Source: Lentilactobacillus hilgardii DSM 20176 = ATCC 8290
Lineage (GTDB): Bacteria; Bacillota; Bacilli; Lactobacillales; Lactobacillaceae
DNA: 64,000 bases
Reading direction: 5' to 3'
NCBI RefSeq assembly: GCF_000159315.1
Contig: NZ_GG669993.1
Coordinates: 140,242-204,241 of the forward strand
Every line of letters starts with the position of its first letter. Position 1 is the first letter of the stretch. Position numbers and translations under genes: made by a program. Shown here piece by piece: positions 3,299 through 7,387 of the stretch. A model generated the notes under the pieces. That model had not been told where the DNA came from. It did no database searches and worked only from the letters and a program-made list of their open reading frames with translations.

Positions 3299-3982
3299 AT
3301 GCAAGATGCAGCTGTATTGAAAGGTACAAATGATGGTTACGAGATAATTTTAGATGATGAGGCTGATTTGGGTGATATTTATACGTCACTAAGAAGTTTG
3401 CTTGAGAAGCTTAGAACTCAGACTGCTTCTACTCATCCTCAACCAATTTCCTTTGATATCCAAACTGGTCTGAGACTTTTGTCAGCCGGTAATCGTTCAG
3501 AAATTGAAAAGATTTTTTCTGACTTTCAGCTTTTCTCAGTCCACAAAATTACGTCAGATGTGATGACTAAAGAAGAGTCAAATCGAATTCTAGATCAGGA
3601 AACGGTTCACGTGGTTGATCGCATCATTCGAAACGGACAAGAGGTTCACGTTCAGGGAGATGTGGTGTTTCTCGGCATTATTCATGAGGGCGGTAAGCTT
3701 TTTGTAGGCGGAAATATTTACGTTCTTGGCGATGTTCATGGCGTCATTCAAGCGGGATTCCCTGATTTGGAAGATAAAATGATTATTGGGGATGTACATA
3801 ACGCGCAACAAGTCCGGATTGGTGAACAATACGAGATTCTTGACGATACCAACCAGAAGATTACAGAAAACTCGGTTGTATATGTGAATGATTTGCACGT
3901 CTTAGACTATGGAAAAGTTGAAGATCTTAAACAAATTAACCCAAAGTTCTTTAATCAGATAGGAGGAGTCATCAATGGGTAA
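3299..3982 (+). CDS. minC: Septum site-determining protein MinC
   Basis: MinC inhibits FtsZ polymerisation at the poles, together with membrane-bound MinD. The 227-residue product has an N-terminal FtsZ-interacting domain (about 1-100) and a C-terminal domain (about 105-215) with the glycine-rich triangular beta-helix pattern, visible as VQGDVVFLG, GGNIYVLGDVHG and AGFPD. ATG 3299 has AAAGGGGAG upstream. The end overlaps the minD start by 8 bases, indicating translational coupling. No MinE or DivIVA gene is visible nearby. Confidence 0.92.
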   Translation: MQDAAVLKGTNDGYEIILDDEADLGDIYTSLRSLLEKLRTQTASTHPQPISFDIQTGLRLLSAGNRSEIEKIFSDFQLFSVHKITSDVMTKEESNRILDQETVHVVDRIIRNGQEVHVQGDVVFLGIIHEGGKLFVGGNIYVLGDVHGVIQAGFPDLEDKMIIGDVHNAQQVRIGEQYEILDDTNQKITENSVVYVNDLHVLDYGKVEDLKQINPKFFNQIGGVING

Positions 3983-4781
3983 AGCATACGTCATTACTTC
4001 AGGAAAAGGTGGAGTTGGAAAAACGACTTCTTCAGCTAATATTGGTACTGCCCTCGCCATGCTTGGAAAAAAAGTTTGCTTGATGGATTTAGATATTGGT
4101 CTACGAAATTTGGATGTTGTTCTTGGACTGGATAATCGAATTATGTATGATATTGTTGATGTTGCATCAGGAAGGGCCAGTCTTGGGCAAGCACTAGTTA
4201 AGGACAAACGGTTTGATGATTTATTATACCTTCTTCCTGCTGCCCAGAATACTGATAAGACGGCGTTAACTCAAGATCAGGTTGTTCAGATTGTTAACGA
4301 GATAAAGCCGGATTTTGATTATGTTCTGATTGATTGTCCTGCTGGCATCGAACAGGGATTTATGAACGCCATTGCGGGCGCTGATAGTGCCATTATTGTC
4401 ACAACTCCCGAAATTTCTGCAGTAAGGGATGCTGATCGAGTGGTTGGATTGCTTGAGCAACATCCGCTTCAAGAAGAACCACACTTGATTATTAATCGAA
4501 TTAGGACTCATATGATGAAAGACGGTTCTGTGATGGACGTTGATGAGATTACCCATCATTTAGGCGTAGAATTACTAGGCATTGTATTTGATGATGATGC
4601 TGTTATTACAACGTCAAATCAAGGTGAACCAGTGGTTCTTCAGGCTGATAATCCGGCTGGTCAAGGGTATCGGGATATTGCCAGACGTCTTGAAGGTGAA
4701 TCGGTTCCCCTAATGCAGATGACAGATGAAGTTCATCCCTCATTTTGGAAAAAAATTGGTAATTGGTTCAAAAAGGGGTAA
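3975..4781 (+). CDS. minD: Septum site-determining ATPase MinD
   Basis: MinD is a ParA/MinD-type ATPase that recruits MinC to the membrane and so keeps division away from the poles. The sequence shows the deviant Walker A GKGGVGKTT near residues 9-17, the MDLDIGLRNLD switch segment, and DCPAG (Walker B region). It ends in a short amphipathic tail (WKKIGNWFKKG), the expected membrane-targeting helix. ATG 3975 follows AGGAGGAG and overlaps minC. Length of 268 residues is typical. A strong promoter for the next, unrelated operon begins eight bases after the stop, with no terminator visible between them. Confidence 0.96.
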   Translation: MGKAYVITSGKGGVGKTTSSANIGTALAMLGKKVCLMDLDIGLRNLDVVLGLDNRIMYDIVDVASGRASLGQALVKDKRFDDLLYLLPAAQNTDKTALTQDQVVQIVNEIKPDFDYVLIDCPAGIEQGFMNAIAGADSAIIVTTPEISAVRDADRVVGLLEQHPLQEEPHLIINRIRTHMMKDGSVMDVDEITHHLGVELLGIVFDDDAVITTSNQGEPVVLQADNPAGQGYRDIARRLEGESVPLMQMTDEVHPSFWKKIGNWFKKG

Positions 4782-4788
4782 ATACTGC

Positions 4789-4817
4789 TTGACGGATGAC
4801 GATTTTCCGATTATCAT
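4789..4817 (+). promoter_or_regulatory. Promoter of the T-box-controlled transporter operon
   Basis: TTGACG (4789-4794) and TATCAT (4812-4817) are separated by exactly 17 bases. This is a near-consensus housekeeping promoter placed immediately before the T-box leader. Transcription would begin near 4824. Confidence 0.8.
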
Positions 4818-4841
4818 TGTTACCATAAATTAAGGAAATAT

Positions 4842-5098
4842 AAAAGACTATGATCAGAATAGTAAACCATGTTAAATTTCAGAAAGCTCATGATGATGGG
4901 AAATGGGTATTTGAATGGTTTGCGTCACATCTGGGAGTCATTTTCCTGAATGAAGTAGGGAAAAGCGGTGAGCACGTTATTGCTGAAGTTTAGTTTTCTA
5001 AACTCGTTGAGACTTTTCATATGAATGGAAAGTGAAGCTGAGGTGGAACCGCGATTAATAATCGTCCTCTTAAGTCATTAGACTTAAGAGGCTTTTTT
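4842..5098 (+). promoter_or_regulatory. T-box leader, predicted histidine-specific, with first terminator
   Basis: A T-box RNA senses uncharged tRNA and lets transcription proceed. Stem I can be drawn by hand. AAAAGACT (4842-4849) pairs with 4936-4944 (one bulge), CAGA (4855-4858) with TCTG (4930-4933), and AAACCAT (4864-4870) with ATGGTTT (4915-4921). The AGTA loop motif at 4861-4864 faces the specifier loop. The codon in the specifier position, just before a purine and the lower helix, is CAC (4926-4928), histidine. A hairpin at 4987-5004 and stem III (5012-5033) follow. The T-box AGGTGGAACCGCG is at 5041-5053, and an 11-bp terminator (5066-5091) precedes a T run at 5093-5098. The specifier assignment is my inference; the T-box itself is certain. 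Confidence 0.88.
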
Positions 5099-5122
5099 GT
5101 ATAGAAAATTAAACTTCATGAG

Positions 5123-5212
5123 GTAGTAAATGTGAATTTACTACAAATTGGGGTGGAACCGCGAAAACTATCGTCCTCTTGAGTCTATTAATAACTCAAG
5201 GGGATTTTTTTT
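5123..5212 (+). promoter_or_regulatory. Second T-box antiterminator/terminator module without its own Stem I
   Basis: Only 24 bases after the first terminator there is another hairpin resembling stem III (GTAGTAAA 5123-5130 with TTTACTAC 5137-5144). It is followed by a second T-box, GGGTGGAACCGCG (5151-5163), and a second terminator (CCTCTTGAGT 5175-5184 with 5194-5203, T run 5205-5212). There is no room for a second specifier stem. The permease Shine-Dalgarno follows at 5215-5220. Confidence 0.85.
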
Positions 5213-5228: not shown

Positions 5229-5873
5229 ATGATTCAATATATCGAGCAAATTTTACCGGCACTGTTGTCAGGAACAAAAATGACCTTGTCAATTTTCTTT
5301 TGGACGTTAATTTGTTCAATTCCGTTAGGAGCGGTTTTAGCCTTAGGATTAGTCAGTAAATTTAAGCCATTAGTTTGGTTGTTAAATCTGTATGATTGGT
5401 TAATGCGAGGCACACCACTGCTACTACAATTAATTTTTGTGTTTTATGGATTACCTGTTATTGGTATTATATTTGAACGTTATGACGCGGCCTTATTTGC
5501 ATTCATTTTAAACTATACAGCATATTTTGCAGAGATTTTTAGAGGGGGATTTCAATCAGTACCGCGAGGGCAATTTGAAAGTGCCTGTGTGTTACGGTTA
5601 TCCTATGGTCAAACGATCCGAAAAATTATTATTCCTCAAGTGTTTAAAATCGTTTTACCGTCAATTGGCAATGAGGTCATTAATTTGGTTAAGGATTCAT
5701 CATTGGTTTACGTTATCGGGTTGGGAGATCTTTTAAGAGCCGGAAACGTAGCAACAGCCAGAGATGTTACATTGCTGCCACTTGTACTTGTTGGCATTAT
5801 TTATCTGGCATTAACCGCTATTTGTACGATCGTGCTAAAGGTGATTGAAAAACGTTCAAGTGTTTGGAGATAA
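5229..5873 (+). CDS. Amino-acid ABC transporter permease (probably histidine)
   Basis: A 214-residue inner-membrane permease of the polar amino-acid uptake family (HisM/GlnP type), with about five hydrophobic segments and the cytoplasmic coupling region that contacts the ATPase. It would form the translocation channel for the substrate delivered by the lipoprotein encoded two genes downstream. ATG 5229 is chosen because GGAGGG (5215-5220) lies eight bases upstream. The frame stays open further upstream, but that part is the second T-box read as protein. The operon is permease-ATPase-binding protein under a T-box with a CAC specifier, so histidine is the best guess for substrate. Confidence 0.88.
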   Translation: MIQYIEQILPALLSGTKMTLSIFFWTLICSIPLGAVLALGLVSKFKPLVWLLNLYDWLMRGTPLLLQLIFVFYGLPVIGIIFERYDAALFAFILNYTAYFAEIFRGGFQSVPRGQFESACVLRLSYGQTIRKIIIPQVFKIVLPSIGNEVINLVKDSSLVYVIGLGDLLRAGNVATARDVTLLPLVLVGIIYLALTAICTIVLKVIEKRSSVWR

Positions 5874-5885
5874 GGGGGTATTGAC

Positions 5886-6521
5886 ATGTTGGAGATAAGG
5901 AACCTAACGAAAAAATTTGGTAGTAAAACAGTTATCAATAACCTGTCTATGACGGTTAACGATAACGAAATTATGGCGATTGTCGGCCCCTCTGGTGCTG
6001 GGAAGACAACTTTGCTTAGATGTATTACGGGCCTTGAAAGAGTTAATAGTGGTGCTTTTTATTGGGATGGTAAACAATTTGATCCTACAAATCCGGATAA
6101 AGGTGACACGATTATCGGTGTTGTTTTTCAAGATTATCAATTGTTTCCAAATTTAACGGTGATGGGAAATATTACATTAGCACCAACAATGGTTAAAAAA
6201 GAATCAAAGAGTCAAGTAACTGAAAATGCAATGACACTTTTAAAGCGTTTGGGTTTGGAAGGAAAAGAGACATTATATCCGTATCAACTTTCTGGTGGAC
6301 AAAAGCAACGAGTTGCTATTGTCCGTGCACTTGCAATGAATCCAAAAATTCTTTGTTATGATGAACCGACTTCGGCCCTTGACCCGGCACTTCGAGATGA
6401 AGTGGCTCAGATTATTTTGGATCTAAAAAAACAAGAAATGACACAAATAGTGGTTACTCATGATATGGAATTTGCGAAGCATGTAGCAGATGATATTAAG
6501 CGAGTCGAACAAATCCAATAG
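5886..6521 (+). CDS. Amino-acid ABC transporter ATP-binding protein (short form)
   Basis: ATPase that powers the adjacent permease. All nucleotide-binding motifs are present: Walker A GPSGAGKTT near residue 34, Q-loop VFQDYQLF, signature LSGGQKQR, Walker B ILCYDEPTS and the switch histidine VTHD. The protein stops at 211 residues, soon after the H-loop, whereas relatives of the HisP/GlnQ type usually run to about 240 with an extra C-terminal segment. I see no frameshift; the next gene follows after 14 bases with its own ribosome binding site, so the short form is probably natural. ATG 5886 has AAGGGGG upstream. Confidence 0.88.
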   Translation: MLEIRNLTKKFGSKTVINNLSMTVNDNEIMAIVGPSGAGKTTLLRCITGLERVNSGAFYWDGKQFDPTNPDKGDTIIGVVFQDYQLFPNLTVMGNITLAPTMVKKESKSQVTENAMTLLKRLGLEGKETLYPYQLSGGQKQRVAIVRALAMNPKILCYDEPTSALDPALRDEVAQIILDLKKQEMTQIVVTHDMEFAKHVADDIKRVEQIQ

Positions 6522-6535
6522 AGAGAAGGATTAAC

Positions 6536-7387
6536 ATGCAAAAAGTTGTAAAAAAATGCCCGTTAGTCATCGTTACCCTTCTGCTAATGTTTGTATTATC
6601 CGGCTGTCGCTTTGAATCAAGGCAAAAAATGGAAACAAATCCAGATACCTGGTCAATTGTTTCCAAACAAAAGAAAATTGTTATCGGTTTAGACGATGGT
6701 TTTGTTCCAATGGGTTTTGAAACTAAAAGTGGCAAAATCGTTGGTTACGATGTTGATTTGGCTAAGGCGGTTTTTAAGCAATACGGCATTAAAGTAAATT
6801 TCCAACCAATTGATTGGTCAATGAATGTGACTGAACTGCGGAATGGAACAATTGATTTAATTTGGAATGGGTTTTCTATGAATCCTCAAAGGGCAAAGAA
6901 GGTCACCTTCAGCGAACCCTATTTGGTTAATAAACAGGTATTGATTTCTAAGGAAAAAAATCATATTAATAGTTTTGCGGATATGAAAAATAGAGTTGCC
7001 GGTGTTCAAGCTGGATCTGCCGGGGCAATGGATATTGATTCACAGCCAAAGCTATTAAAGGATCGAATTAAAAATCACACTCCTATTCTTTATGATTCAT
7101 TTACAGAAGCATTTATTGACTTAAATTCAGATCGAATTCAAGGATTATTAATCGATAGTATTTATGCGGGGTACTATATTGGGCACCAAAAAGATCGGGC
7201 AACATATCAAAGCGTTCCAAGTCAATTTCCTAAAGAGTATTATGGTGTTGGAATGAGAAAGGGAGATACTAAACTTAAGCAGAAAATTGATGCTGGTTTA
7301 AATCGACTGGCTAAAGATGGTCAACTTGCAAAGATTAATAAGAAATGGTTTGGAACCAATGCTTACAGTCCCTTGATGAAAAAATAA
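6536..7387 (+). CDS. Amino-acid-binding lipoprotein of the ABC transporter
   Basis: A 283-residue extracellular solute-binding protein of family 3 (polar amino acids). It begins with a lipoprotein signal: basic start, hydrophobic core and lipobox LSGC with the lipidated cysteine at residue 24. The mature part has the family hallmarks GYDVDLAKAVF, LRNGTIDLIWNGF and RAKKVTFSEPY. It captures the amino acid outside the membrane and delivers it to the permease encoded at the start of the operon. ATG 6536 is preceded by AGAAGGA. A strong terminator follows, closing the operon. Confidence 0.9.
   Translation: MQKVVKKCPLVIVTLLLMFVLSGCRFESRQKMETNPDTWSIVSKQKKIVIGLDDGFVPMGFETKSGKIVGYDVDLAKAVFKQYGIKVNFQPIDWSMNVTELRNGTIDLIWNGFSMNPQRAKKVTFSEPYLVNKQVLISKEKNHINSFADMKNRVAGVQAGSAGAMDIDSQPKLLKDRIKNHTPILYDSFTEAFIDLNSDRIQGLLIDSIYAGYYIGHQKDRATYQSVPSQFPKEYYGVGMRKGDTKLKQKIDAGLNRLAKDGQLAKINKKWFGTNAYSPLMKK

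Follow-up and report, generated by a model that had tools for sequence, protein, structure and literature searches.

Partially tandem T-boxes, in which one Stem I is followed by at least two discriminator/terminator modules, have already been described, and the excerpted text of PMC7583486 gives their "modes of action" as unknown; the structural work summarised there treats the discriminator as the charging sensor and suggests that the pseudoknot could set the position of the purine string that precedes Stem III. For the histidine T-boxes of hisYZX genes in Lactobacillales, the excerpt of PMC9413887 reports mostly single T-boxes per region, with tandem arrangements in five Enterococcus species, and histidine-specific ABC T-boxes are also found in Table 1 of PMC2494555 (as excerpted).

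The leader analysed here lies in the window (the whole stretch of 64,000 nucleotides from Lentilactobacillus hilgardii DSM 20176 = ATCC 8290, contig NZ_GG669993.1), between minD (ORF 3975–4781) on its 5' side and an amino-acid ABC operon of three genes and hisYZX type on its 3' side. An earlier note, made from the letters of the DNA, had read it as a partially duplicated histidine T-box with one Stem I and two modules, and this reading is borne out: window positions 4841–5212 are a histidine T-box leader with a single Stem I, the specifier CAC and two complete discriminator/terminator modules. The Rfam T-box model (RF00230) matches 4841–5072 over model positions 1–219 with 106.7 bits (E 1.4e-22), above the gathering score, whilst module 2 scores alone as a partial T-box (window 5107–5178, model positions 148–216, 33.7 bits, E 9.3e-6). 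The positions previously assigned to the specifier and to both T-box sequences proved correct on direct check. The features of the locus are as follows:

4789..4817, plus strand: possible promoter TTGACG - 17 nt - TATCAT, with 10/12 consensus positions, weak alone
4841..4938, plus strand: Stem I, single and complete (Rfam RF00230 alignment)
4926..4928, plus strand: specifier CAC (His), read directly from the sequence
4941..4983, plus strand: Stem II and Stem IIA/B pseudoknot region with F-box CGTTA at 4975–4979 (Rfam alignment), the exact IIB pairing being our reading of the alignment
4984..5006, plus strand: linker hairpin of module 1, -5.8 kcal/mol
4984..5000, plus strand: shared bridge strand, i.e. 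5' arm and loop of the linker hairpin (folding energy, alignment)
5008..5011, plus strand: purine string TGAG of module 1 (sequence; role as in the excerpt of PMC7583486)
5012..5033, plus strand: Stem III of module 1, -9.3 kcal/mol, z -2.8
5041..5071, plus strand: T-box 1 (AGGTGGAACCGCG, 5041–5053) and antiterminator 1 (Rfam match)
5066..5098, plus strand: terminator 1 with T run 5093–5098, -16.6 kcal/mol, z -6.8 (also from a simple terminator scan)
5102..5118, plus strand: bridge strand of module 2, partner of 4984–5000 over 17 bp with one G.U (duplex energy, covariation, folds)
5119..5122, plus strand: purine string TGAG of module 2, immediately 3' of the bridge (sequence)
5123..5144, plus strand: Stem III of module 2, -9.3 kcal/mol, z -2.6
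5151..5178, plus strand: T-box 2 (GGGTGGAACCGCG, 5151–5163) and antiterminator 2 (partial Rfam match, 33.7 bits)
5173..5212, plus strand: terminator 2 with T run 5205–5212, -16.4 kcal/mol, z -5.0
5229..5873, plus strand: gene 1, polar amino-acid ABC permease (HEQRo_perm_3TM above cut-off; no equivalog cut-off reached)
5886..6521, plus strand: gene 2, ABC ATPase of GlnQ/HisP type (none of the 25 families shown reaches its cut-off)
6536..7387, plus strand: gene 3, amino-acid substrate-binding protein (all families below their cut-offs)

The promoter scan found 3 sites where 2.1 are expected by chance, and transcription would start at about 4824 if the promoter at 4789–4817 is real. Histidine is the presumed substrate of the importer on the strength of the CAC specifier and the excerpted PMC9413887, no histidine-specific NCBIfam cut-off being reached. 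The source genome holds a tRNA-His with anticodon GTG, whose C73 faces, and on our reading can pair with, the encoded G-1; the T-box base N is A in the window leader and varies among leaders. TBDB, according to the excerpt of PMC7778990, leaves histidine T-boxes out of its discriminator-base criterion.

With its single Stem I and two modules the window leader is a partially tandem T-box and not a fully tandem one, Rfam giving only model positions 148–216 for module 2. As the earlier note had stated, no second Stem I precedes T-box 2 and there is no room for one: the starts of the two T-boxes are 110 nt apart and terminator 1 lies between them. Folding likewise upholds the stem III-like hairpin claimed before each T-box and the intrinsic terminator claimed after it, both with the energies listed above and a T run behind each terminator. 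The 5' arms of the terminators (from 5066 and from 5173) overlap the 3' strand of the antiterminator in each module, making terminator and antiterminator mutually exclusive; the antiterminator regions folded alone reach -8.3 kcal/mol (z -0.8) and -7.0 kcal/mol (z 0.2) and are no stabler than shuffles. Terminator 2 was missed by the simple scan that did find terminator 1, because its predicted 9-nt loop is outside the 3–8 limit of that scan. An Rfam scan at the gathering threshold misses second discriminators, reporting one match in this window. At E≤0.001 the source genome (2.7 Mb) shows 46 T-box matches, 13 of them over the gathering score, and module 2 is the sole partial match among the 46.

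Module 1 is suspended from the F-box pseudoknot by the small linker hairpin, which lies between F-box and purine string. The stretch 5102–5118 at the start of module 2 is complementary to 4984–5000, that is, to the 5' arm and loop of the linker hairpin and slightly more, forming 17 bp with one G.U. This bridge helix, which is matched by none of 200 shuffles of the window leader, is predicted at -19.8 kcal/mol versus -5.8 kcal/mol for the linker hairpin, and the two are mutually exclusive. Both helices end 0–1 nt from their respective TGAG purine strings, and hence the bridge would set discriminator 2 where discriminator 1 was: an arrangement that fits the suggestion, in the excerpt of PMC7583486, that the IIA/B pseudoknot positions the purine string. 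When the growing transcript is folded to minimum energy, ends 5100 and 5110 give the linker hairpin and all tested ends from 5118 give the bridge, with a mean pair probability of the bridge above 0.99 at the four ends tested, these being folds of the RNA alone that contain no tRNA, polymerase or pseudoknot.

In order to describe how widespread the two-module form is, we used a strict pattern (two T-box cores and an intervening T run, 76–136 nt overall) as well as a sample of orthologues. The partially tandem form is not rare: 39 of 301 Lactobacillaceae genomes show the strict pattern, and a scan of genome contigs yielded at least 119 stretches that have it, with 80 loci listed. Relatives of the permease at E≤1e-50 are present in 278 of the 301 genomes, and the orthologue sample took the permease gene from 24 of 24 Lentilactobacillus genomes and from 80 genomes of 18 other genera, the latter picked among the matches listed, with weaker relatives under-represented. 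Two cores 80–200 nt apart were found in 82 of these 104 leaders (14 genera), a single core in 19 and none in 3; the 82 include all 24 Lentilactobacillus leaders, in one of which (L214) the second core is a variant. Orthologous leaders reduced to a single module plus a degenerate copy, the pattern named in the earlier note as speaking against its own claim, are therefore not the general case, and module 2, given its retention in most of the family leaders examined, is not decay; the 19 leaders scored as single do show module 2 to be dispensable in some genera. Individual scores are to be read with the following in mind: L302, scored without a core, has only 175 bases at a contig end; L292 and L294, scored as single, seem on sight to hold a further module whose core is a variant; and in L242 the distance between the two cores is 217 nt. 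The named loci L107 (L. otakiensis) and L134 (L. kefiri) have the linkers of L203 and L202, in keeping with the genus Lentilactobacillus. A stem III-like hairpin precedes T-box 2 in all 82 two-module leaders, terminator 2 was found in 76 and not found in 6, the TGGNACC of T-box 2 is intact in 71 and departs in 11, and a pattern search places the CAC specifier at its position in 81. Two further genomes, G231 (C110:88534) and G165 (C137:18012), have pattern matches on contigs other than that of the best permease match and may thus hold a second two-module leader.

The bridge was analysed in the 82 two-module leaders, which represent 78 distinct linker/module-2 pairs, with contiguous-helix and restricted tests; these replaced free duplex folding of the whole upstream region, which joined many internal loops and was too noisy. 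The best contiguous helix between linker and module 2 reaches p≤0.05 in 70 of the 82 leaders and p≤0.01 in 54 (300 dinucleotide shuffles), and when compared with swaps between genera it reaches p≤0.05 in 65, with a median score of 25 versus 13.5 for the swaps. Those cases that we inspected among the 12 leaders missing p≤0.05 show a single mismatch, contain an internal loop or have the F-box misplaced. Duplex energies give p≤0.05 in 72 of the 78 distinct leaders, and all 78 beat their own mean swap. The bridge is predicted to be stabler than the local fold in 82/82 (medians -16.9 versus -4.9), a helix of 9 bp or more that contains no more than one mismatch is present in 80/82, and in the minimum-energy folds of 79/82 at least 6 linker bases are paired with module 2. 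As a control, 16 single-module histidine leaders show a median of -7.2 kcal/mol between linker and post-terminator sequence (a similar, non-identical window of sequence), the comparable median for two-module leaders being -17.1 kcal/mol. In the set of pattern loci, which was unselected, the wide contiguous test is positive at p≤0.05 for 24/30 named Lactobacillaceae loci and for 26/30 other loci of the family.

The three leaders whose minimum-energy fold lacks the bridge are L261, L267 and L291; L261 and L267 still keep 14 and 9 complementary base pairs. In L291 (G098), module 2 has what looks like its own F-box/pseudoknot and linker hairpin, and there is no second Stem I. This leader seems to be an intermediate between partial and full tandem and may do without the first F-box and linker: it is one case, and we read the exception as consistent with the view that every discriminator needs an F-box pseudoknot to be attached to.

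Covariation was assessed in an alignment (A1) of 89 leaders, comprising 80 of the 82 (L250 and L291 were dropped for their excessive length) plus nine that the pattern scans had supplied. Over 11 bridge pairs 88.0% of cells are paired versus a shuffled mean of 76.4, and pairing falls to 32–56% when the register is slid by 1–3 columns. Changes on both sides of a pair number 98 versus 37.1 in shuffles (sd 6.0; 0/500 as high), and the covariation score is 0.238 versus 0.105: since these shuffles, like the swaps and the other controls, ignore the kinship of the sequences and leave relatedness in, the compensations are perhaps not all independent. The local linker hairpin is itself retained, with 92.6% of its cells paired in the 89 leaders. 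Taken together, comparison across the family supports the bridge helix well.

Outside the family, the strict pattern occurs in 28 of 63 Syntrophomonadales genomes (the order of L093), where the leaders inspected show a TTC (Phe-like) specifier region and one, L360, lies upstream of DAHP synthase. Linker/module-2 duplexes reach p≤0.05 in 21 of 28 and p≤0.01 in 10, but the own duplex beats the mean swap in only 18/28, since its conserved portion can pair whichever leaders are combined. In the aligned pairs 87.9% of cells are paired (2/500 shuffles as high) and 14 both-side changes compare with 6.2 in shuffles (sd 1.9), the score being reached by 1/500; further pair types show no excess over shuffles in this order (109/500). 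One leader, L350, has AAA in the linker and TTT in module 2 where most others have GGA and TCC, and its linker holds no local TTT partner. In Veillonellales (the order of L077) the strict pattern occurs in 11/61 genomes, with periplasmic binding proteins (L326, L332) and a PEP-mutase-family protein (L334) encoded downstream. The wide test is weak here, with p≤0.05 in 4 of 22 leaders, although the own duplex beats the mean swap in 20; in alignment A3 the short helix remained unaligned, and instead a test restricted to the sequence just before the purine string was used, giving 9/22, own above swap in 20/22 and a combined p of 8e-8, values that are optimistic, given the kinship of the leaders and a restriction settled on only once the wide test had been run. 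L316 (pattern not re-found) and L322–L324 (unlike the rest) were left out of these tests. Some genomes of this order, namely G322, G310, G314, G320 and G324, carry three to five partially tandem T-boxes each.

Bacillales arrays gave a different result, with a bridge in 0/5 distinct leaders after one of six loci had been dropped (a duplicate or without a found linker). These leaders (L067, L069, L120, L135 and L139) have two short discriminator modules, or three in case of L067, which precedes a gene of the sodium:neurotransmitter-symporter family; no bridge was detected in them, and their stem III arms may pair across modules. Across the non-Lactobacillaceae pattern loci the wide contiguous test was positive in only 4/50. 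A bridge in every partial duplication, a generalisation that we had considered, is ruled out by these two results; for helices of a similar kind there is support in Syntrophomonadales and weaker support in Veillonellales.

We consider it probable that the leader combines a single tRNA-reading domain with two discriminator–terminator modules worked in series by strand exchange, such that uncharged tRNA-His would be tested twice. The tRNA-reading domain would consist of Stem I, Stem II and IIA/B, and uncharged tRNA-His held on Stem I would first stabilise antiterminator 1, allowing RNA polymerase to get past terminator 1. No more than about 20 nt later the bridge strand would emerge and displace the linker hairpin, and discriminator 2 would then dock onto the unit of pseudoknot, Stem I and tRNA that had previously served discriminator 1; we infer this hand-over of the tRNA to module 2 from the topology. 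The released discriminator 1 may fold into terminator 1 (-16.6 kcal/mol versus -8.3 kcal/mol for the antiterminator 1 region alone), which would be harmless once polymerase is past and would render the step hard to reverse. To open terminator 2, the same tRNA, or a replacement, would again have to be uncharged. Full-length mRNA of the histidine importer would in this order of events, which we also infer, need two successive positive tests, with less leak as a result; the steeper response to histidine starvation that had been proposed earlier is plausible on these grounds.

The most direct alternative to such a hand-over is that the two modules are independent of each other, with discriminator 2 responding to a separate, free uncharged tRNA that has no codon anchoring. 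Both modules do possess a T-box and a stem III-like hairpin, and Bacillales offer partial duplications in which no bridge is detectable (0/5), yet with independent modules it is unexplained why a helix linking module 2 with the only Stem I–II domain should be under selection. An unanchored module 2 would, furthermore, hardly be histidine-specific: C73 can pair with G-1, and the N of UGGN varies. The CCA end is common to all tRNAs. We judge a free tRNA to be distinctly unlikely, and of the two routes to an open terminator 2 that the earlier note had offered, we favour a transfer of the same tRNA, because the co-varying helix ties module 2 to the F-box and linker of the single Stem I–II domain, whereas the unanchored tRNA is disfavoured. 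A real bridge could also act mainly as a ratchet or insulator that clears module 1 and holds module 2, with terminator 2 as a modest constitutive attenuator. The dominance of the bridge in the predicted fold even without tRNA is what such a device would show, but a stem III-like hairpin in 82/82 leaders and an intact T-box 2 in 71/82 go beyond the needs of a constitutive terminator, and we hold this explanation to be unlikely.

Two further explanations deny the second module, or the complementarity itself, a function. The complementarity might be a functionless by-product of duplication, module 2 having retained a duplicate of the linker hairpin's 3' arm, whose match to the 5' arm is simply inherited: the AAACT core is common to both strands, and part of the Syntrophomonadales helix may be such a copy of the local 3' arm. 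Against this, the helix includes part of the hairpin loop, for which a copied arm would offer no partner. Among the 353 module-2 bases that precede the shared AACT, there are 279 Watson-Crick complements of the 5' side and loop and 168 identities with the 3' side, and hence the module-2 strand is not simply a copied 3' arm. Columns 22–24 of A1, which pair with 189–187 and lie mostly in the loop, hold 46 both-side changes, and in L350 AAA/TTT stands in place of GGA/TCC, with no local TTT partner in the linker. A leftover copy is rejected for Lactobacillaceae by the covariation and by these base counts, and as a general account we regard it as very improbable. That module 2 is an evolutionary remnant or a spare terminator without regulatory role draws on the 19/104 leaders scored as single, in which the module can evidently be absent; its occurrence in 24/24 leaders of the genus and 82/104 of those examined in the family speaks so clearly to the contrary that we attach hardly any probability to it.

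The serial hand-over that we prefer for the window leader might extend to partially tandem T-boxes of several lineages, which would then be RNA proofreading devices: the bridge, on this reading shared by at least three orders with varied sequences and downstream genes, would hand a codon-bound tRNA from one discriminator to the next in the course of transcription, with an effectively irreversible step, the folding of terminator 1 once the polymerase is past, between the two tests. We put this wider reading forward tentatively, rating its chances at a little below even. If the hand-over is true, it would constitute natural serial proofreading by RNA alone and provide a rule for designing stacks of expression platforms that share one aptamer. 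The bridge helix offers a specific structural answer to the question of how partially tandem T-boxes act. A description of the linker/module-2 helix was not present in the titles and abstract openings surveyed, and an earlier mention is possible in two main comparative works (Vitreschak 2008, Gutierrez-Preciado 2009) or elsewhere; in relation to the texts surveyed the bridge helix is a new addition, the partially tandem form itself being already in print.

Compared with the partially tandem T-boxes of PMC7583486, the window leader shares the architecture and differs in the mode of action proposed here and in the bridge helix, of which the excerpted text of that work makes no mention. The hisYZX leaders of PMC9413887 agree with ours, as far as the excerpt extends, in kind of gene, specificity and bacterial order, but are reported there as mostly single, whereas we find a second discriminator in 82 of 104 Lactobacillaceae leaders. 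With the T-box family RF00230 (transcriptional, with long Stem I, Stem II and IIA/B) the leader has in common Stem I, specifier, F-box, Stem III, T-box and the antiterminator/terminator pair, and departs from it in having two discriminators per Stem I and a linker hairpin able to exchange strands. Strand-exchange riboswitches, finally, rely on mutually exclusive helices that compete for one strand during transcription, as do linker hairpin and bridge in this leader; in our case, by contrast, strand exchange would serve to re-dock another expression platform on a single tRNA-binding domain.
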